A stretch of 64,000 nucleotides of DNA from Ascidia mentula (Eukaryota > Chordata > Ascidiacea > Phlebobranchia > Ascidiidae), in assembly GCA_947561715.1 (NCBI GenBank), contig OX387199.1, positions 14,451,001-14,515,000 of the forward strand. The letters are read 5' to 3'. The translations under genes and the position numbers were made by a program. Below, in pieces: positions 50,211 to 64,000 of this stretch. Positions within the stretch are counted from its first letter, which is position 1. The number at the start of each line of letters is the position of its first letter. Under the pieces are notes generated by a model. The model did not search any database and had not been told where the DNA came from. It worked only from the letters and a program-made list of their open reading frames with translations.

Positions 50211-51307
50211 ATGAAGGGGAAATGTGTTCTCATTTTTATTGCAATTTGCAGTATGTCTCACCTCTACGCACAAGCAGGTGATCCTAAATTGTTTAACGTG
50301 TATGACATTTATGGCAAAATGAACACTGTGTATTTTTAGTGGTTGCATTGTTGAATAAGCAGTGACCAAGTTAAGTAAATTTTCCCTTTACGTCTGTGAT
50401 GCAGTTTCGCGTTAAAGACACGTTACAAGACTTTTTTTAACATAGTTTAATATTTCCAGTCGGTGATAGAGACAAACGGTTGTTTTAGTATTCTATTGAT
50501 TTACTTTGATCAAATACATCTTTTCTCACAGTGCCGGCAGCTGAGCTTGTTTACAATGGCATGCTGTACAGTTTCTTCGACGACTCGTTACTAACCTACA
50601 GTGCTGCCTTGGCCGAATGCGAAGCCATCAAAGCGACTTTGGTCATGCCGAAAACCGCGGACGTTCAGGATGCGATACGAGATCAACTTTACCAGATGTG
50701 GAACTCTTCGCAGGTTACAAGCGATTACGAAGACGCTTATTGGGCAGGTTCATACAAATCCGGACCTTGGTATTGGAGCGATGACACGGCCGTTAATGAT
50801 GGAGACACAAATTTTTGCGACTGCATTCCGGATAATTTACCAGAACCCGATGGAGATTACAGGTAACATAATGTTCGTGTTGTGCAGAAATTGCGAAATT
50901 AAACACTGGTTTAATTGTAAAACTTTTTATTTGTAGATTGACACTATTTGCATTTGATGATTATTACAAGGCATCTATTGGAGATTATGTACATGGGCAG
51001 ACTGGTAAGTGGTATCCACAACCAAAAACTTCGGAAATGATGTTCATTTGTCAGCAACCAGGTACACAATACTGTAGAAATACGGCACCATCACTTTTGA
51101 ACTAGTTCTTTTGCTGTTAAGATAAAGTTTTCTTGTGTCCATTGTGGACTAATGAAAAAGCTTACTGAAATTTATTTTGTTCACCCTAGACAGTAAACTG
51201 TTTTTCACTTGTCATTTTTTTTGTCATTTTGCCCTTCTGAATGTCATACTTTTGTTTTTTATTCCGCAGTTCCGTGTCATGGCATCTCTTGCGGAAACAC
51301 CCCGTAA
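50211..51307 (+). CDS. short secreted C-type-lectin-like protein, paralogue of the adjacent lectin/EGF gene
   Basis: Exons 50211-50277, 50532-50862, 50937-51061 and 51270-51307, in phase, about 186 residues. Exon 1 encodes a signal peptide (MKGKCVLIFIAICSMSHLYA). Exons 2-3 form one C-type-lectin-like domain: Tyr-Ser-Phe-Phe start, Tyr-Ser-Ala-Ala-Leu-Ala-Glu-Cys helix, a YWAGSYKSGPWYWSDD core, and a final Phe-Ile-Cys. No classic EPN or QPD sugar-binding triplet with WND is seen, so Ca-dependent sugar binding is doubtful. Exon lengths 67, 331 and 125 equal those of the long gene at 53.1 kb. Exon 4 starts like the EGF exon of that paralogue (VPC) but stops after about 12 codons; EGF-like traces continue in another frame just after the stop. 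An AATAAA lies at 51499-51504. It may be a genuine short lectin or a decaying copy. Confidence 0.72.
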
Positions 51308-53061: not shown

Positions 53062-56000
53062 ATGAAGTGGATTTATGTTTTATTTTATTCAACGATTGGT
53101 GCCATGTTTCAACTTCACGCACGAGAAGGTAAAAACGTCAAGTGATTAAAGTTTTCTTGGTGTTTTTCAAAAAGGTTTCTATCGACATGAATGTGTAACT
53201 ACAATTTTTGCTATGTGTCCATTACTCTGGTGGAAGTATTCGGCAGCATATTTTACTTTTTCTCGTTTATACAATGGCATTAATACTTAATTCACTAATC
53301 GTTGTTGTTTTTATTGCAATTACTTGTAATTGGATGATTAATCAAGTTTATTCGTTGACACAGTGCCAGGAGCTGAGCTTATCTACGATCGCAAGCTCTA
53401 CAGTTTTTTCAACGACTCGTTACTAAACTACAGCGCTGCCTTGGCCGAATGTGAAGCAAACAACGCGACTTTGGTCATGCCGAAAACCGCGGATGTCCAG
53501 GAGGAGATACGAATTCAACTTTATCAGATGTGGAACTCTTCGCAGGTTACAAGCGATTACGAGGACGCTTACTGGGCAGGTTCATACAAATCCGGACCTT
53601 GGTATTGGAGCGATGACACGGCCGTTAATGATGGAGACACAAATTTTTGCGACTGCATTCCGGATAATTTACCAGAACCCGATGCAGTGTACAGGTTATA
53701 TAATGTCGGTGATGTGCAGAAATTTAAGTTTAGTGAAAAAGTTGAACGCAGTTTTGCAAAACTCTTGTATGTATAGATTGACACTATTTGCATTTGATGA
53801 TTATTACAAGGGATCTATTGGAGATTATGTACATGAGCAGACTGGTAAGTGGTATCCACAACCAAAAACTTCGGAAATGATGTTCATTTGCGAGTTACCA
53901 GGTAACTGTAGAAACGTATCGTATATTGTATGTATTTTTTTTCGCGTTTTCAAAGTGTTTAATTTAAACACAGAAGATAGTTTTGGCAACTGTCAGCTTT
54001 TATGTGAAAATTGCACCCACAGCAAGCTCTTTTTAAATTTATAGACTGAAGCTAACATATAAACAAATATGCATTCACAACAAAGATTTTCAAAAGTAAC
54101 GTGTGCTTTGTGTATAGAAATATCATGTATTTTGGTCAAAGTATCAATGGTAAAAATGTACAAAACATGATATGCCATATTTATTGAAACTTGCTGTGAG
54201 TTGTAAATAGAGTAAAAGCGTGAAATGTTTTTCAGTACCTTGCTATGAAAATCCATGTGAAAACAACGGAACTTGTGAAGAGATTGGTTCTAAGCATAAA
54301 TGCCACTGTGTAGAGGGCTACAAAGGTCAAAACTGCGAATCAGGTGGAATCTGATTTAGTTTGTACGCCTAATTAAACCTTCATAGCTATTCGGTTAAAC
54401 TAATTTCCAGCTTGCGTTGTAGTTTTTCTGTAATTTTCGATGTGTAATGCAGTTGTAAAATACGAAAACAAAAATACTCAAACTGAATAGTTGCATTTAA
54501 TTCACTATGAAAATGCAAACAACAATTCATGTGTTTGTGTACAACATTTGTTTCAAACCGACAAAATCCCAATTCCCAAGCAAAACGTTGAAGAAAATGC
54601 CTTGTTGGAAAGTCATTAGAATGTCGTCCATACGCGAAGTGTAGTGAAGCTTTAAATTTAATATTTTTTCGATTTGCCATTTAAATCCCGACACCTGCGA
54701 CTATTATATTTAAAACGACAGGAGGTAAGTATTTGTTCAACAAACCGATTCGACAAAAATCGAAATAATCGTTTGCAGAACAAGGTAATCGAAGAACCAC
54801 AAATAACACCAGATTTTGTTATCACAAACACGACCCGGTACAACAGTTAATCGGTCATTACACCCGCAACGCTAACATAGTTATGTCAACGTTCTCGTTT
54901 TGCGGCAAAGGGTTTCGGTTGCTTGACACGAGATTTGGTTTAACGACCCTCCTGTGCTAAGGTTAATTTCGTTTTTAATGTCTGAGAAAACAACAGCTGG
55001 ACAAAGACTAAAATATTGTTACGATCCTTTTTCTCGGGTAATTCTGTAAACGTGACGATACTTTTACTGGTGATGGTGAAATCTGATGAATAATAAAATG
55101 GGATATATTGAAAACGTTTTTAGCCAAACGATGTGATTGTTTTTGTGTTTTGAATTACGGTAACCAACATCATCGTAAAATTGTTTCTGTGTTTGATGAA
55201 GATTTATGCGACGACGGTTATTGCAAAAACGGCGCAAACTGTTCCATGGTTGGTTCAACGTATCGCTGCAGTTGTCAGGAGGTTTTCTTTGGTGAAAATT
55301 GCAGTCTGAGTAAGTTTGCAATAAAAATAAATCTTCTCTGAAAACTCTAAGTCATAAATAGCAGATAAATACCCACATACTTTATATAGTTTCTATTTGC
55401 TTTCTATCCGTTTGGGACGATACGTTTTTTGTTGTTGTTAATATACACTTAGACACTTTATTATCAATCTTGTTGTAATTTCTGTTCACAAATCCACACA
55501 AAGAAAACAATATCCCAATGGTGATACGTATTTTTGCCTTACGAGCAACAGAAAAGTATTTTTCTCTTTCATTTTTACGCTCCGATACAGGGGTTTTAGT
55601 TTTGTTCCTTCTCCTTAAACCTCTCATGCAAATCGGCCGCAAAACATATTTTCTGCGAGCACACACTGCGAATGATGCTTTCTAGGTCACTGCACTCCAC
55701 AACCGTGTGGAGAAAACGGAGTTTGCACACCAAATACAACCGGGTATTCTTGTGAATGCAACGGAGGATATTTTGGGCAAAACTGTTCTTTCAGTAAGTA
55801 CATTCATACACAAATACCAGTTGTTACAATTTCCCTATATCTAATATCTGTTATTCATCGATAAAAAAGCATAAACAAAATCCTATGCAAAAAGTAGTGT
55901 TTTTACAGATCTGTGTTCTTCCGATCCTTGCGAATACAACGGAAATTGTTCCTTCAATGAGACCACCTTTTTCTGCGAATGCCCGCCGGGCTACTTTTCC

Positions 56001-59000
56001 AAAAACTGTTCCCAAAGTAAATATACTCAGAAGCGCTGTAGAAATAGTAGTTCGAATGTGACTAATGTAACTTTGCAGGTTTTTGTACTGACCATCCATG
56101 TGGAGACCATGGAAGTTGCGACGTGAGGTCTGATGGTTATAAATGTACTTGCGATCAAGGTTACCGCGGAGAAAACTGTTCAGTTAGTAAGTCTTTCACA
56201 AAGGAAAAGTTAAGGAATGGTAGTTTTGGGAAGGATTTTTTAACCTGAATTTAATTTTAAATTGTTTATTCTGTGTCAAACGGTATTTTATTAAAAAAAA
56301 ACTTTGCAAAGGGTATTTTACGACATTTATGGACTGCAAACCTAAAAAAAAATTTATTTTTTTATTATTTTTTTTATTTTCTAGACCACTGCAGTTACGA
56401 TCCTTGTGGAATGAACGGTACGTGTAGTTTCAATGCGTCAACGTACATATGTTACTGCGACCCAGGATACTTCGGTGTCAACTGCTCACTAGGTCAGACA
56501 CGGAAGACTTTGAATAACAACTTCGTGTTTTATATAACTACATTTATTTGAATATTTATTTGAATGTGGACTAAGGTGTGGATTATTTTAGAAGACATAT
56601 TTGTGTTGTTAGATCATTGCACAATTGGTCCATGTGGAGATCATGGAGATTGTTCATTCAACGCAACAACTTACACATGTTCATGCAATGATGATTATTA
56701 TGGTCGAAATTGTTCCGAAAGTCAGTTTCAACAGACTGATCAAATCTATAGAAAAAAATATACGTTTATTCAATTAACAAATATACCCTATCCTTAATTG
56801 AGTAAAATATTTAATAAACCCATATCCTGCTTGTCAGTTGTTTCGGTTGATGTAGGGACTTGTTTTTTACCTGTGATTTGCACATTCAGATCATTGTACA
56901 ACCGAACCTTGTGGAGAATTTGGTAACTGCACATTTAACTCGAACAATTATAACTGCACATGTTTCGGAGGATATTTGGGAGCCAACTGCTCGGAAAGTA
57001 AGTGTGACCTAAATGGATACCTAGACTATAGAAAAAGTCAAGTTGATTATGTAATGTTTCAAACAAATAATTCCAATGCCCAAGTGATCTGTGTATTGTC
57101 CTTTTCATTAGATTATTGCAGCGACAGTCCTTGTCTTAACGGAGGAACTTGTTACTTCAACAGCACAGGCCACTACTGCATTTGTCACGACGGTTATTTT
57201 GGTGGTGACTGTGAAGAAAGTAAGTTGTAAAAGTGTTGATGCATCCAAATGATTTTACTTAGTATTACCTGTATAGGTTTTTGTTGGGCATCCTGTCAAG
57301 AACAAGAGTGGAATCATTGTTGGTTTAACGAAACTGCTTTAAATTGCACATGTGAGGATTCATCTTTTACAAAGCTTTGCACCGAACGTGAGTAGAATTC
57401 ATTTTGGACCACCTAAAAATACTTTTCATAAAGTAGACTGGCGTTTATTGCCATTTTCAAATGTGCTTCATAAAATCACTCTGACTTCGTTGCAGAATTT
57501 TGCTCAAACGAAGAATGTGAGTATGAAGTTCATTGCAACTTTAATGAAACGTTGGATTTCTATCATTGTGAATGTGCAAACCACACCGAGGTCACCAACT
57601 GCAATCGAGGTAAAACCAACTTACTAACAGTAATGTGAAAATCAAAATCAACCGAAAATGTATGTACATAGAGCAAACGTAAAACCTAGAATATATAAAC
57701 CTGACGAATCATTCATAAACATGAACGTAGTTAAAGGGTATAGATCAGACCATATTTTTATTCCAAACTTTTTGTTGACAAAATTCGCAGAAAGTTGTGC
57801 TGACAACCCATGCGGGGAAAATGGCATCTGTGAAATTACCAGCGATTCATATCTCTGCAATTGTCGTCCTGGAAGCTCCGGAAAGAATTGCGAACTGGGT
57901 AGGGTTTTGTTTCTGCTGTTCTAAACACGTGCAACCTTTGATTTATTTTATCTATGATTTTGTCAGATCATTGCACAATTGGTCCATGTGGAGATCATGG
58001 AGATTGTTCATTCAACGCAACAACTTACACATGTTCATGCAATGATGATTATTATGGTCGAAATTGTTCCGAAAGTCAGTTTCAACAGACTGATCAAATC
58101 TATAGAAAAAAATATACGTTTATTCCATTAACAAATATACCCTATCCTTAATTGAGTGAAATATTTAATAAACCCATACCCTGCTTGTCAGTTGTTTCGG
58201 TTGATGTAGGGACTTGTATTTTTACTTGTGATTTGCACATTCAGATCATTGTACAACCGAACCTTGTGGAGAATTTGGCAACTGCACATTTAACTCGACC
58301 AATTATAACTGCACATGTTTCGGAGGATATTTGGGAGCCAACTGCTCGGAAAGTAAGTGTGACCTAAATGGATACCTAAACTATAGAAAAAGTCAAGTTG
58401 ATTATGTAATGTTTCAAACAAATAATTCCAATGCCCAAGTGATCTGTGTATTGTCCTTTTCATTAGATTATTGCAGCGACAGTCCTTGTCTTAACGGAGG
58501 AACTTGTTACTTCAACAGCACAGGCCACTACTGCATTTGTCACGACGGTTATTTTGGTGGTGACTGTGAAGAAAGTAAGTTGTAAAAGTGTTGATGCATC
58601 CAAATGATTTTACTTAGTATTACCTGTATAGGTTTTTGTTGGGCATCCTGTCAAGACCAAGAGTGGAATCATTGTTGGTTTAACGAAACTGCTTTAAATT
58701 GCACATGTGAGGATTCATCTTTTACAAAGCTTTGCACCGAACGTGAGCAAAATTCATTTTGGACCACCTAAAAATACTTTTCATAAAGTAGACTGGCGTT
58801 TGTTGCTATTTTCAAGTGTGCTTCAAAAAATTACTCGGACTTCGTTGCAGAATTTTGCTCAAACGAAGAATGTGAGTATGAAGTTCATTGCAACTTTAAT
58901 GAAACGTTGGATTTCTATCATTGTGAATGTGCAAACGAAACCAAGGTCGCCAACTGCAATCGAGGTAAAACCAACTTACTAACAGAAATCTCTGGTAATG

Positions 59001-62000
59001 TGAAAGTCAAAATCAACCGAAAATGTATGTACATAGAGCAAAAGTAAAACCTAGAATATATAAACCTGACGAATCATTCATAAACATGAACGTAGTTAAA
59101 GGGTATAGATCAGACCATATTTTTATTCCAAACTTTTTGTCAACAAAATTCGCAGAAAGTTGTGCTGACAACCCATGCGGGGAAAATGGCATCTGTGAAA
59201 TTACCAGCGATTCATATGTCTGCAATTGTCGTCCTGGAAGCTCCGGAAAGAATTGCGAACTGGGTAGGGTTTTGTTTCTGCTGTTCTAAACACGTGCAAC
59301 CTTTGATTTATTTTATCTATGATTTTGTCAGATCATTGCACAATTGGTCCATGTGGAGATCATGGAGATTGTTCATTCAACGCAACAACTTACACATGTT
59401 CATGCAATGATGATTATTATGGTCGAAATTGTTCCGAAAGTCAGTTTCAACAAACTGATAAAATCTATAGAAAAAAATATACGTTTATTCCATCAACAAA
59501 TATACACTATCCTTAATTGAGTAAAATATTTAACATACCCATACCCTGCTTGTCAGTTGTTTCGGTTGATGTAGGGACTTGTATTTTTACTTGTGATTTG
59601 CACATTCAGATCATTGTACAACCGAACCTTGTGGAGAATTTGGCAACTGCACATTTAACTCGACCAATTACAACTGCACATGTTTCGGAGGATATTTGGG
59701 AGCCAACTGCTCGGAAAGTAAGTGTGACCTAAATGGATACCTAAACTATAGAAAAAGTCAAGTTGAGTATGTAATGTTTCAAACAAATAATTCCAATGCC
59801 CAAGTGATCTGTGTATTGTCCTTTTCATTAGATTATTGCAGCGACAGTCCTTGTCTTAACGGAGGAACTTGTTACTTCAACAGCACAGGCCACTACTGCA
59901 TTTGTCACGACGGTTATTTTGGTGGTGACTGTGAAGAAAGTAAGTTGTAAAAGTGTTGATGCATCCAAATGATTTTACTTAGTATTACCTGTATAGGTTT
60001 TTGTTGGGCATCCTGTCAAGACCAAGAGTGGAATCATTGTTGGTTTAACGAAACTGCTTTAAATTGCACATGTGAGGATTCATCTTTTACAAAGCTTTGC
60101 ACCGAACGTGAGCAAAATTCATTTTGGACCACCTAAAAATACTTTTCATAAAGTAGACTGGCGTTTGTTGCTATTTTCAAGTGTGCTTCAAAAAATTACT
60201 CGGACTTCGTTGCAGAATTTTGCTCAAACGAAGAATGTGAGTATGAAGTTCATTGCAACTTTAATGAAACGTTGGATTTCTATCATTGTGAATGTGCAAA
60301 CCACACCGAGGTCACCAACTGCAATCAAGGTAAAACCAATTCACCAAAAAGAAATCTCGGTGATGTAAAAGTCACAGCTAACCGAAAATGTATGGACAAA
60401 GTAAAACCTAGAACATAAAAACCTGACGAATCATTCATAAACATGAACGTAGTGTAAGGGTATAGACCAGACCATATTTTAATTTCAAGCTTTTTTTTAA
60501 AAAATCCGCAGAAAGTTGCGTTCACAACCCATGCGGGGAAAATGGCATCTGTGAAATTACCAGCGATTCATATCTCTGCAATTGTCGTCCTGGAAGCTCG
60601 GGAAAGAATTGCGAACTGGGTAAGGTTTTGTTGCTGATGTTCTAAACACGTGCAACCATTCATATACTTTATCTATGATTGTTTTCAGATCATTGCACAA
60701 TTGGCCCATGTGGAGATCATGGAGATTGTTTATTCAACGCAACAACTTATACCTGTTCATGCAAAGATGATTATTTTGGAAGAAATTGTTCCGAAAGTCA
60801 GTTTCAACAGACTGATCAAATCTACAGAAAAAAATATACGTTTATTCCATTAACAAATATACCCTATCCTTAATTGAGTAAAATATTTAATACACCCTGT
60901 TTGTCAATTGTTTCGGTTGATGTAGGGACTTGTTTTTTTACCTGCGAATTGCACATTCAGATCATTGTACAACCGAACCTTGTGGAGAATTTGGCAACTG
61001 CACATTTAACTCGACCAATTACAACTGCACATGTTTCGGAGGATATTTGGGAGCCAACTGCTCGGAAAGTAAGTGTGACCTAAATGGATACCTAAACTAT
61101 AGAAAAAGTCAAGTTGAGTATGTAATGTTTCAAACAAATAATTCCAATGCCCAAGTGATCTGTGTATTGTCCTTTTCATTAGATTATTGCAGCGACAGTC
61201 CTTGTCTTAACGGAGGAACTTGTTACTTCAACAGCACAGGCCACTACTGCATTTGTCACGACGGTTATTTTGGTGGTGACTGTGAAGAAAGTAAGTTGTA
61301 AAAGTGTTGATGCATCCAAATGATTTTACTTAGTATTACCTGTATAGGTTTTTGTTGGGCATCCTGTCAAGACCAAGAGTGGAATCATTGTTGGTTTAAC
61401 GAAACTGCTTTAAATTGCACATGTGAGGATTCATCTTTTACAAAGCTTTGCACCGAACGTGAGCAAAATTCATTTTGGACCACCTAAAAATACTTTTCAT
61501 AAAGTAGACTGGCGTTTGTTGCTATTTTCAAGTGTGCTTCAAAAAATTACTCGGACTTCGTTGCAGAATTTTGCTCAAACGAAGAATGTGAGTATGAAGT
61601 TCATTGCAACTTTAATGAAACGTTGGATTTCTATCATTGTGAATGTGCAAACCACACCGAGGTCACCAACTGCAATCAAGGTAAAACCAATTCACCAAAA
61701 AGAAATCTCGGTGATGTAAAAGTCACAGCTAACCGAAAATGTATGGACAAAGTAAAACCTAGAACATAAAAACCTGACGAATCATTCATAAACATGAACG
61801 TAGTGTAAGGGTATAGACCAGACCATATTTTAATTTCAAGCTTTTTTTTAAAAAATCCGCAGAAAGTTGCGTTCACAACCCATGCGGGGAAAATGGCATC
61901 TGTGAAATTACCAGCGATTCATATCTCTGCAATTGTCGTCCTGGAAGCTCGGGAAAGAATTGCGAACTGGGTAAGGTTTTGTTGCTGATGTTCTAAACAC

Positions 62001-64000
62001 GTGCAACCATTCATATACTTTATCTATGATTGTTTTCAGATCATTGCACAATTGGCCCATGTGGAGATCATGAAGATTGTTTATTCAACGCAACAACCTA
62101 CACCTGTTCATGCAAGGATGATTATTTTGGTCGAAACTGCTCTGAAAGTCAGTTCAGTTTTTAAGCAAAATAATCTCCATACAACCAATAAGTTGATAAT
62201 ATATTAGATTGAAAGAGTGCTTGCCCAAAGATTGCTTCAATGAATATCTTAACTTTAAATAACACCTTGTTTTGATCTCTGTTGCTTGGGAGATATAATG
62301 TAACAAGCAAAGGCTATTTTTTTTTATTTCTTCTGATGAAAGTTATCTATCTCTTTCAGATCATTGTACAAACAATCCTTGTGGCGATCACGGAAATTGT
62401 TCTTTCAACGACACTAGGTACAGTTGCACATGCTTCGGTGGGTATTTTGGTACCAGCTGTTCACAAAGTGAGTCACCTGCAATGTTTGTTTGGAATGCCT
62501 TTTAAAATTTAATTTTTGAAACTCTCCCAACAGATTTCTGTTCCAGTGACCCCTGTCTTAATGCTGGTAGTTGTAATTTTAATAGCTCTGGATATCATTG
62601 TTCTTGTGATGATGGATTTCGAGGAAACAACTGCCAAGAGAGTAGGTTCCCTGTATAAGTTGTGTAGCTGCTTCGTACATGCGCTTAAAAACGAAAGCTG
62701 TCAAAGACTTGCAGGAAACAGATTTTTTTTTGAAAATTTTTTGTGTGTTCTGTCGAAAAAACTTTGGAATTAAAAGATGTAACTTTTTTTAGGTTACTGT
62801 TGGACTTCTTGTGGCGAAAAGAGTTTGGATTTCTGTTGGTTTGGGGATTCCATTTTTAACTGTTCTTGTGGGGATAACCCTTTTGGAAAGCTGTGCACAG
62901 AACGTGAGAAAAGCTTTGGACAATCTCGTATTTGGTTGCATACAAAACAACAGTATTGTAACGTTCAAATTAGTGGTGATATAATGATTATACGTAGTCT
63001 ATCCTAAAATATCCATTAGAAACGTTTTAAAGCAACCAAAAAAAAAAAAAAATGGAATTGTCGAAGCATAGATGTATTGCTACATTACATTTGTTTTAGA
63101 TTTTTGTTCTGAAAGTACGTGCAGTTCGGACGTGTATTGCAATTTCAATGAAACTGACAGCACCTATCAGTGCACCTGTCGTAATCAAACGATGACCACC
63201 GGATGCACCTATGGTTCGTGTTATCGTATTTTGTACATAACCGTTGTGTTGTTCAGCTAATAATTAGGCATAAAATGGTGCATAATCATCTCTTTGCAAT
63301 TTTAATGTTCAATGATTTCTTGACCTATATCGAGCGCAATAGTGATGTACAGAAGAAAGTTCATATATTTTGGGTTTTAGGAGCGTGTGCAGACGAACCG
63401 TGCGGAGAATTCGGGTTTTGCGAATTAACTACAGATTCATATTTGTGCAAATGTCAACCAGGACACTTTGGGAATATCTGTCAGTTTGGTGAGAGCAGAT
63501 TGGTTCATTAGTTCTAAACGCTCTTTCTGTGTTATAATATTGTTTCCACGGTTTTGCTGACCAATTTCCTTGCAAACAATTATTACACCTATTGGTTACT
63601 TTGGCAGGTATTATTCAGTTAAAAAACTACCCGAAAGTAAATGTTTAGAGGTTGCATTGGGATAATGCCCATGTGTAGAATTACGCTATGTGAGATGTGA
63701 GGAAAAAATCGACGCAGATATCGCATTTTTCAGAATAAATTATAGTGTTTCAATTCTATGCTAAAGACAAGACATGACATGACACAAGATATGTGTTTTG
63801 ATGCTTTTGCTCTTTCGAACAGAATACTGGGTGTGGTATATTGTTTACAAAGATATCAAGTAATACTAAATAGTTTGTAAACACTACATAAATAATTAGA
63901 TGCTTATTGCAACAGAAGAAGTCTTGTTTGAAATACTTAAACTAGTTTTGTTTAGATCACTGCACCAACAATACATGCGGCGATTTTGGCAAATGTGTGT
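53062..64000 (+). CDS. secreted C-type-lectin plus multi-EGF protein, 3' end beyond the window
   Basis: Exons: 53062-53128 (signal peptide MKWIYVLFYSTIGAMFQLHA), 53364-53694 and 53777-53901 (C-type-lectin-like domain), then single-EGF exons 54236-54343, 55202-55309, 55686-55793, 55909-56016, 56079-56186 and 56385-56492, five six-exon cassettes from 56613 to 63488, and a cut exon at 63956. At least 36 whole EGF-like domains and about 1,500 residues lie in the window. Nearly every EGF is one phase 1-1 exon of 108 bases with the six-Cys pattern (for example HCTIGPCGDHGDC, CSCNDDYYG, NC). Asn-x-Ser/Thr sites recur, such as FNATT and NCSES. The canonical Ca-binding/hydroxylation pattern is absent or shifted, so rod-like Ca-EGF behaviour is not assured. 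No membrane segment is reached. The short gene at 50.2 kb is its paralogue. A secreted recognition or matrix role is inferred; I know no named orthologue. Confidence 0.85.
56613..57966 (+). repeat. EGF cassette copy 1 of a tandem array (6 exons)
   Basis: Exons 56613-56720, 56890-56997, 57112-57219, 57277-57387, 57496-57609 and 57791-57898, of 108, 108, 108, 111, 114 and 108 bases. Each EGF is marked by its start: DHCTIGPC, DHCTTEPC, DYCSDSPC, FCWASC, FCSNEEC, SCADNPC. The copy is 1,354 bases to the next unit. Introns as well as exons are nearly identical to copies 2-4, which points to very recent duplication. Confidence 0.92.
57967..59331 (+). repeat. EGF cassette copy 2
   Basis: Exons 57967-58074, 58245-58352, 58467-58574, 58632-58742, 58851-58964 and 59156-59263, in the same order and lengths as copy 1. 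The unit is 1,365 bases. Small differences from copy 1 include the fifth exon, where the CANHTEV stretch reads CANETKV. Confidence 0.92.
59332..60688 (+). repeat. EGF cassette copy 3
   Basis: Exons 59332-59439, 59610-59717, 59832-59939, 59997-60107, 60216-60329 and 60512-60619. The unit is 1,357 bases. Its first half is like copy 2, while its last intron and last exon (SCVHNPC instead of SCADNPC) are like copy 4, so a recombination or conversion boundary lies inside the unit. Confidence 0.92.
60689..62039 (+). repeat. EGF cassette copy 4
   Basis: Exons 60689-60796, 60961-61068, 61183-61290, 61348-61458, 61567-61680 and 61863-61970. The unit is 1,351 bases. From the second exon on it is almost indistinguishable from copy 3, but its first exon (CLFNATT, CSCKDDYFG) matches the first exon of copy 5 better than copies 1-3 (CSFNATT, CSCNDDYYG). 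Confidence 0.92.
62040..63488 (+). repeat. EGF cassette copy 5, diverged
   Basis: Exons 62040-62147, 62360-62467, 62534-62641, 62793-62903, 63100-63213 and 63381-63488. They keep the exact 108-108-108-111-114-108 order, including YCWTSC and FCSESTC at the fourth and fifth places. Apart from the first exon the sequences are clearly diverged from copies 1-4 and the introns are unrelated in length. The six-EGF cassette is therefore old and was only recently re-amplified. Confidence 0.88.
63956..64000 (+). CDS. start of EGF cassette copy 6 (cut by the window edge)
   Basis: A TTTAG acceptor followed by DHCTNNTCGDFGKC in the expected phase. It begins like the first or second exon of the cassette, so the array continues beyond the window. 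It belongs to the long lectin/EGF gene. The intron before it (63489-63955) holds no other exon that I can see. Confidence 0.75.
   Translation, partial: MTAPTIHAAILANVC

Follow-up and report, generated by a model that had tools for sequence, protein, structure and literature searches.

The 64,000-nucleotide stretch of Ascidia mentula DNA analysed here (the window) contains, towards its right-hand end, a block of six EGF-like exons that is repeated in tandem within a gene that also appears to encode lectin domains. This raises the question of what kind of protein carries the repeat, how its copies arose and what a change in their number would mean for the product. An initial annotation of the window had proposed a secreted C-type-lectin protein that could vary in length by six-EGF steps, a design that might suit recognition or allorecognition. 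The mitochondrial contig of the same assembly (C79, 19,461 bases) uses the ascidian code, with AGA/AGG codons at conserved glycine positions of COX1.

The array lies on the + strand and consists of four closely similar units followed by a diverged fifth. Unit 1 (1,354 bases, 56604-57957) has exons A-F starting at 56613, 56890, 57112, 57277, 57496 and 57791; unit 2 (1,365 bases, 57958-59322) at 57967, 58245, 58467, 58632, 58851 and 59156; unit 3 (1,357 bases, 59323-60679) at 59332, 59610, 59832, 59997, 60216 and 60512; and unit 4 (1,351 bases, 60680-62030) at 60689, 60961, 61183, 61348, 61567 and 61863. The exons of each unit measure 108, 108, 108, 111, 114 and 108 bases, and the same six lengths recur in unit 5 (62031-63488), where exon A occupies 62040-62147 and exons B-F start at 62360, 62534, 62793, 63100 and 63381. 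Every array exon encodes one six-cysteine EGF-like module and has phase 1-1 borders, the AG/GT flanks having been imposed by the search; modules D and E are without the usual glycines. With introns included, units 2, 3 and 4 are 97%, 94% and 93% identical to unit 1, and self-BLAST returned 4,211 bp at 96.9% identity with a shift of 1,354. The fourfold unit of about 1.36 kb (56604-62030) and the exon lengths and phases that the initial annotation had read from the sequence are thus borne out, as is its point that the gain or loss of any number of units keeps the frame, since the units consist of complete exons, all of phase 1-1.

Within 99 kb (the window plus an extension beyond its right edge) no other direct tandem repeat of more than 200 bp reaches 90% identity. 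Tandem Repeats Finder, whose longest period is 500, gave no row for the array, and the ten inverted-repeat matches shown within it are 14-17 bp long. A DNA search of the whole genome (195.8 Mb in 79 contigs) with unit 1, which skips very common words, returned six matches, all of them at the locus: one for each of units 1-4, and two within unit 5 (124 bp at 90% and 119 bp at 71%). A dispersed or mobile repeat was rejected on this basis, as this search found unit copies at the present locus only. A search of a phage collection returned nothing. The possibility that the units are separate genes was likewise rejected, because no lectin or 7TM match falls between them; Pfam frames were covered up to 57602 and from 62001, and the interval 57.6-62.0 kb as open frames only.

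Closer examination of the array ends separates a recent array from an older copy. The recent array stops at 62154, seven bases beyond exon A of unit 5; this exon belongs with the recent array and exons B-F of unit 5 represent the old copy, so that the recent array has its outer limit at an A exon on either side. When exons B-F were permuted, one of 120 orders, the real one, reached the observed match to unit 1, and each exon best matches its own unit-1 counterpart (B5 being tied with one other exon). The diverged fifth copy of the initial annotation is therefore genuine. A sixth copy had also been placed at the window edge. EGF-like exons do indeed follow unit 5, and the edge interrupts one of them (63956-64000, + strand; whole exon 63956-64063 in extended coordinates), which is the first of 12 further EGF-like exons, the last ending at 67392. 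However, the six exons after unit 5 measure 108, 108, 108, 111, 108 and 108 bases, no clear E-like exon was seen among the downstream exons, and the match of the real order to unit 1 is equalled or bettered by 31 of 720 orders, which makes for a weak candidate. On the other side, six single EGF-like exons of 108 bases each precede the array (54236-56492, + strand; starts 54236, 55202, 55686, 55909, 56079 and 56385). These were considered as an ancestral unit and rejected: they are not in A-F order, and 638 of 720 orders match equally well or better.

In the alignment of units 1-4, exons differ by 1.2-2.9% and introns by 2.2-7.6%. The introns had been described as almost unchanged, which is roughly right, yet they have changed more than the exons. 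The highest dS is that of units 1 and 4, at 0.079, against a dN of 0.015 and an intron divergence of 0.075; with dN well under dS, and dS close to intron divergence, the exons look constrained. Between units 1 and 2, dN (0.013) exceeds dS (0.008), which is at odds with simple purifying selection; this comparison involves few differences (eight in the exons) and nothing further is read into it.

The differences between units are unevenly distributed. Units 3 and 4 share a 1,082-bp run of identity that extends to the unit end and, together with 42 bp of the next A exons, makes up an identical tract of 1,124 bp (59598-60721 = 60949-62072, + strand). Over the first 300 alignment columns, units 3 and 4 differ by 23, and units 3 and 2 by 7. 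Unit 3 is a mosaic, with a unit-2-like start and a unit-4-identical end. A mosaic unit combined with an identical tract is the pattern expected after recent unequal crossing-over or conversion, and the 1,124-bp tract is best read as the footprint of the latest such event. The history of the array would then comprise two phases: a long-ago duplication of the six-EGF exon cassette, separating unit 5 from the rest, and a later, recent amplification in which misaligned copies underwent unequal crossing-over or gene conversion and gave rise to four near-identical units.

The same data bear on whether the assembly is to blame, either through an inflated or collapsed unit number or through haplotypes stacked in tandem. 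Genome assembly is known to have difficulty with tandem repeats, and the available part of the genome report describes this one as not fully phased (PMC11109543). The same part gives 74x HiFi coverage, assembly with hifiasm and purge_dups and a QV of 64.9, and states that the deposited assembly is one haplotype, contigs of the second having been deposited too (GCA_947561685.1). The depth, method and quality value speak against an artefact. Moreover, the units are distinguishable (differing by up to 7%), the entire array is 5.5 kb long, and stacked haplotypes would not be expected to produce a period of 1.35 kb together with a third unit of mosaic structure. An artefact is accordingly regarded as highly improbable.

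In order to identify the gene, the exons on either side of the array were assembled into a model. At its start, a predicted signal-peptide exon (MKGKCVLIFIAICSMSHLYAQA; 50211-50277, + strand), judged by eye, ends after codon base 1 and joins in compatible phase to two lectin cassettes. C-type lectin domain 1 lies at 50532-51061 (exons 50532-50862 and 50937-51061, + strand), where Pfam Lectin_C was matched in both six-frame and spliced translations, and domain 2, also a Lectin_C match, at 53364-53901 (exons 53364-53694 and 53777-53901, + strand). The spliced lectin exons, which have compatible splice phases, match this profile with an E-value of 9.8e-10 in two stretches across both domains together, and are C-type lectin domains by this measure. 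Their translation contains EPD, and the EPN/QPD and WND motifs that bind calcium and sugar in C-type lectin domains are not seen intact (no WND is present). Against solved structures the lectin domain gave nothing at E 0.01, and its two genome matches elsewhere are both at 28% identity. The lectin cassette is also duplicated, with phase-1 outer borders (window 50527-51064 and 53359-53904, 88% identical over 546 bp), meaning that a second module type of the same gene has been copied as well. Lectin_C matches are dense in another part of the genome, with roughly 105 of the 150 scored hits (among 770 candidates), counted by eye, falling at 22.4-27.6 Mb of contig C1.

Past the window edge, exons for GAIN, GPS and a secretin-type 7TM domain come after the EGF exons at 67.5-71.4 kb (extended coordinates), with the strand unchanged and the phases compatible. 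A chain of 14 exons (67279-71438) with phase-consistent splicing yields 639 aa, one exon of the GAIN part (67537-67653) having a poor splice-site score. Pfam reported 7tm_2 (7e-28, profile 4-246 of 250), GPS (5.1e-8) and GPR128_GAIN_subdomA (1.5e-5) in this chain. It therefore combines a secretin-type 7TM domain with a GPS motif that is placed within a GAIN domain and directly before TM1, as in adhesion GPCRs, and the spliced sequence carries HLT at the GPS, which we take to be the usual cleavage triad. Against a set of 5.8 billion proteins, 7,991 candidates were scored for the 639-aa C-terminal part and none reached E 0.001; as the metazoan coverage of this set is uncertain, the result is not taken as absence. 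Further on, at extended coordinates 72921-73475, a 184-bp element is present twice (97% identity), with frames including APVAQLVERW...GREFEPHREL that we assume to be typical of a tRNA-derived short interspersed repeat.

Spliced in silico, the complete model of 66 exons is free of stops over 2,680 aa and contains 98 N-glycosylation sequons; the predicted product would be at least this long, the end of TM7 and the tail lying outside the model. The EGF-like exons number 48, the last of which (67279-67392) is atypical in having nine cysteines. Phases are compatible at the lectin, EGF and GAIN borders, and strand, order and phase together point to lectin, EGF and 7TM exons in a single message. This model was built from genomic DNA, with AG/GT borders imposed during exon choice, and the lectin exons could be part of a separate upstream gene. 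Overall, we consider it very likely that the predicted product is an adhesion GPCR comprising a signal peptide, two C-type-lectin domains, 48 EGF-like modules, GAIN/GPS and 7TM, a judgement that covers jointly the identity of the array as an adhesion-GPCR stalk, the old cassette duplication and the recent amplification by unequal crossing-over or conversion.

The best matches among solved structures are ADGRG2 (4.4e-36, query 145-639) and ADGRG6 (2.5e-34, query 117-639), the match to ADGRE5 being weaker (1.7e-14). In pairwise scoring, the GAIN-7TM chains of ADGRG2 and ADGRG6 gave 128 and 122 bits, while chains aligned to about 380-639 only gave 77 bits for ADGRD1, 76 for ADGRG4, 69 each for ADGRL3 and ADGRG2, 45 for ADGRE5 and 43 for ADGRE1. 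The predicted protein thus has the EGF array, GAIN and 7TM of the EGF-TM7 (ADGRE) receptors, but by these pairwise scores its 7TM domain is not closest to ADGRE members. The receptor may act like an EGF-TM7 protein, yet it is not classed in that subfamily.

These findings alter the reading with which the locus was first described, namely a secreted C-type-lectin/EGF protein that differs in length between individuals and serves recognition or allorecognition. Its lectin and EGF domains are real, and the genomic sequence would also permit a short isoform or the release of a product by shedding at the GPS. Against it stand the 7TM, GPS and GAIN exons that follow on the same strand in compatible phase, beyond the window: if these share one transcript with the array, the product has a transmembrane region. 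Furthermore, A. mentula is described in the available part of its genome report as a solitary, non-budding ascidian (PMC11109543), and no link of the gene to self/non-self recognition was seen, which leaves the allorecognition role unsupported. A secreted recognition protein is consequently judged improbable, and an adhesion GPCR remains the preferred identity.

Among the scored matches, no close copy of the unit, the lectin domains or the 7TM part was found elsewhere; matches to the GPS-7TM part outside the locus are at 25-49% identity (134 of 235 candidates scored). GPS and EGF matches number at least 150 each (150 of 218 and 150 of 3,318 candidates scored, respectively). At 1.50-1.80 Mb of contig C2 there are 29 GPS matches (counted by eye), mostly in open frames of ~250 aa, which suggests an expanded GPS-domain gene family. 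A larger array than that of the window was found on the minus strand at C67:15282001-15346000, a receptor-like locus with 114 EGF-pattern matches. Its repeat unit spans 2,381 bp, comprises nine EGF exons and recurs over some 38 kb. Each of two marker EGFs was counted 11 times; the first four or five occurrences are spaced by exactly 2,381 bp and the later ones irregularly (2.0-8.6 kb). Identity between one stretch of 8.7 kb and the stretch next to it reaches 99.4%. By eye, the exon ahead of the EGF series is CUB-like. After the series come a weak GPS match that falls short of the family cut-off (E 0.0032) and an exon resembling 7TM (E 3.2e-5); single-frame Pfam searches at E 0.1 gave no 7tm_2 match. 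The assignment of the C67 locus as an adhesion GPCR is tentative. A frame related to the 184-bp element (CSSVGRALGLVSPGS) is also present in this region.

A third locus, C71:2870001-2980000, has EGF series on both strands with 127 EGF-pattern matches. At least four of these series have GPS and/or 7TM matches downstream of them, correctly ordered and sharing their strand; for others no 7TM match is listed. The series contain internal repeats of 0.43-2.7 kb at 76-94% identity, and there is a duplication with a spacing of about 14-16 kb at 93-94%. As judged from these three loci, chosen for their EGF and 7TM matches, cassette amplification in EGF-bearing receptor-like genes appears to be recurrent in this genome. 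Viewed from the single haplotype of the window, unequal exchange at the array may well be ongoing, and it is plausible that allelic copy-number variation makes individuals differ in receptor length. As a wider proposal, held as possible rather than probable, several EGF-bearing adhesion-GPCR genes of this species may evolve as length-variable receptors, in which cassettes of six EGFs (this gene) or nine (the C67 locus) turn over by unequal exchange and the alleles of individuals differ by whole cassettes.

What would such variation do? By analogy with adhesion GPCRs and CD97, the mechanism that we favour as most likely is that the lectin and/or EGF modules bind a distant glycan or protein on a cell surface or in the matrix, that cleavage of the receptor takes place at the GPS, and that tension or ligand exposes the tethered agonist and so triggers signalling. 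The number of units would set the length of a stalk rich in N-glycosylation sequons, and hence its reach, flexibility, mechanics and glycan load, and would leave the signalling part untouched. Adhesion GPCRs are thought to sense force via long extracellular stalks. If the proposal is true, unit number would be a coding copy-number polymorphism of the reach and glycan load of a mechanosensitive receptor, and a set of alleles or paralogues that are alike except for six-EGF steps would lend itself to testing how stalk length tunes the receptor.

Neutral amplification would account for the array in another way: blocks of phase-1 EGF exons would grow and shrink by unequal exchange, with stalk length of little effect. 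This reading concerns function and is compatible with the identity of the gene as an adhesion GPCR. The similar internal repeats in other EGF-rich receptor-like loci are as a mutational tendency would produce, and phase symmetry makes such changes cheap. The stronger conservation of exons than of introns weighs on the other side, although it shows that the exons matter and not that their number does. We regard neutrality as a serious possibility that falls somewhat short of probable.

How does this gene compare with known systems? It shows the arrangement of the intragenic domain-cassette repeats of CR1, DMBT1 and LPA, namely a multi-exon coding unit repeated in tandem, introns included, with frame-neutral borders. 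In CR1, too, a multi-domain cassette is duplicated in tandem inside one receptor gene, and size alleles differ by one LHR. The available parts of two sources describe a seven-SCR cassette in the human gene that has given rise to LHR-A to -D, of which LHR-B and -C are highly homologous (PMC10605242, PMC6883348); CR1 differs in having SCR modules, seven to the cassette, and a single transmembrane domain, as against EGF modules, six to the cassette, and 7TM here. DMBT1 (salivary agglutinin) likewise has intragenic tandem units, of SRCR type; the source, as far as available, gives potentially 7-20 SRCR domains, a four-domain unit for CNV1 and a CNV1 mutation rate of 0.7-2.7% per generation (PMC4851238). 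It is, however, a secreted bacteria-binding glycoprotein with SRCR, CUB and zona pellucida domains, and its length polymorphism is established, whereas one haplotype is considered here. LPA also repeats a coding unit within one gene, its kringle IV type 2 being given, in the available parts of the sources, as a 5.6-kb unit with 1-40 repeats per allele (PMC11462820, PMC7613587), but the unit is a kringle, the product is a plasma protein, and the copies are far more numerous and strongly polymorphic.

Among receptors, CD97/ADGRE5 and other EGF-TM7 proteins share tandem EGF modules before GAIN and 7TM. In CD97, according to the available part of the source, three to five EGFs are included by splicing, which alters affinity for CD55, and mechanosensing has been proposed (PMC8191316). 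The present gene differs in its 48 EGF-like modules and two lectin domains, and in its best structure matches, which are ADGRG2 and ADGRG6, with ADGRE5 much lower. Nearer relatives in taxonomic terms are the Ciona proteins ci0100132869 and ci0100131580, two of 24 unclassified adhesion GPCRs, which are ascidian adhesion GPCRs with EGF repeats at the N-terminus; a C-type lectin domain is not reported for them ('C-type lectin' and 'CLECT' have 0 occurrences), and cassette amplification is not described in the available part of that study (PMC2396169). A literature search of partial coverage returned no report of ascidian adhesion GPCRs in which large EGF cassettes have been amplified, which is weak evidence of novelty. 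The process itself is known from human CR1, LPA and DMBT1, and what is unusual is the adhesion-GPCR stalk as its host. If the identification holds, coding repeats of the CR1/DMBT1/LPA type would also occur in a non-vertebrate GPCR, and this genome would contain one or more larger examples besides.
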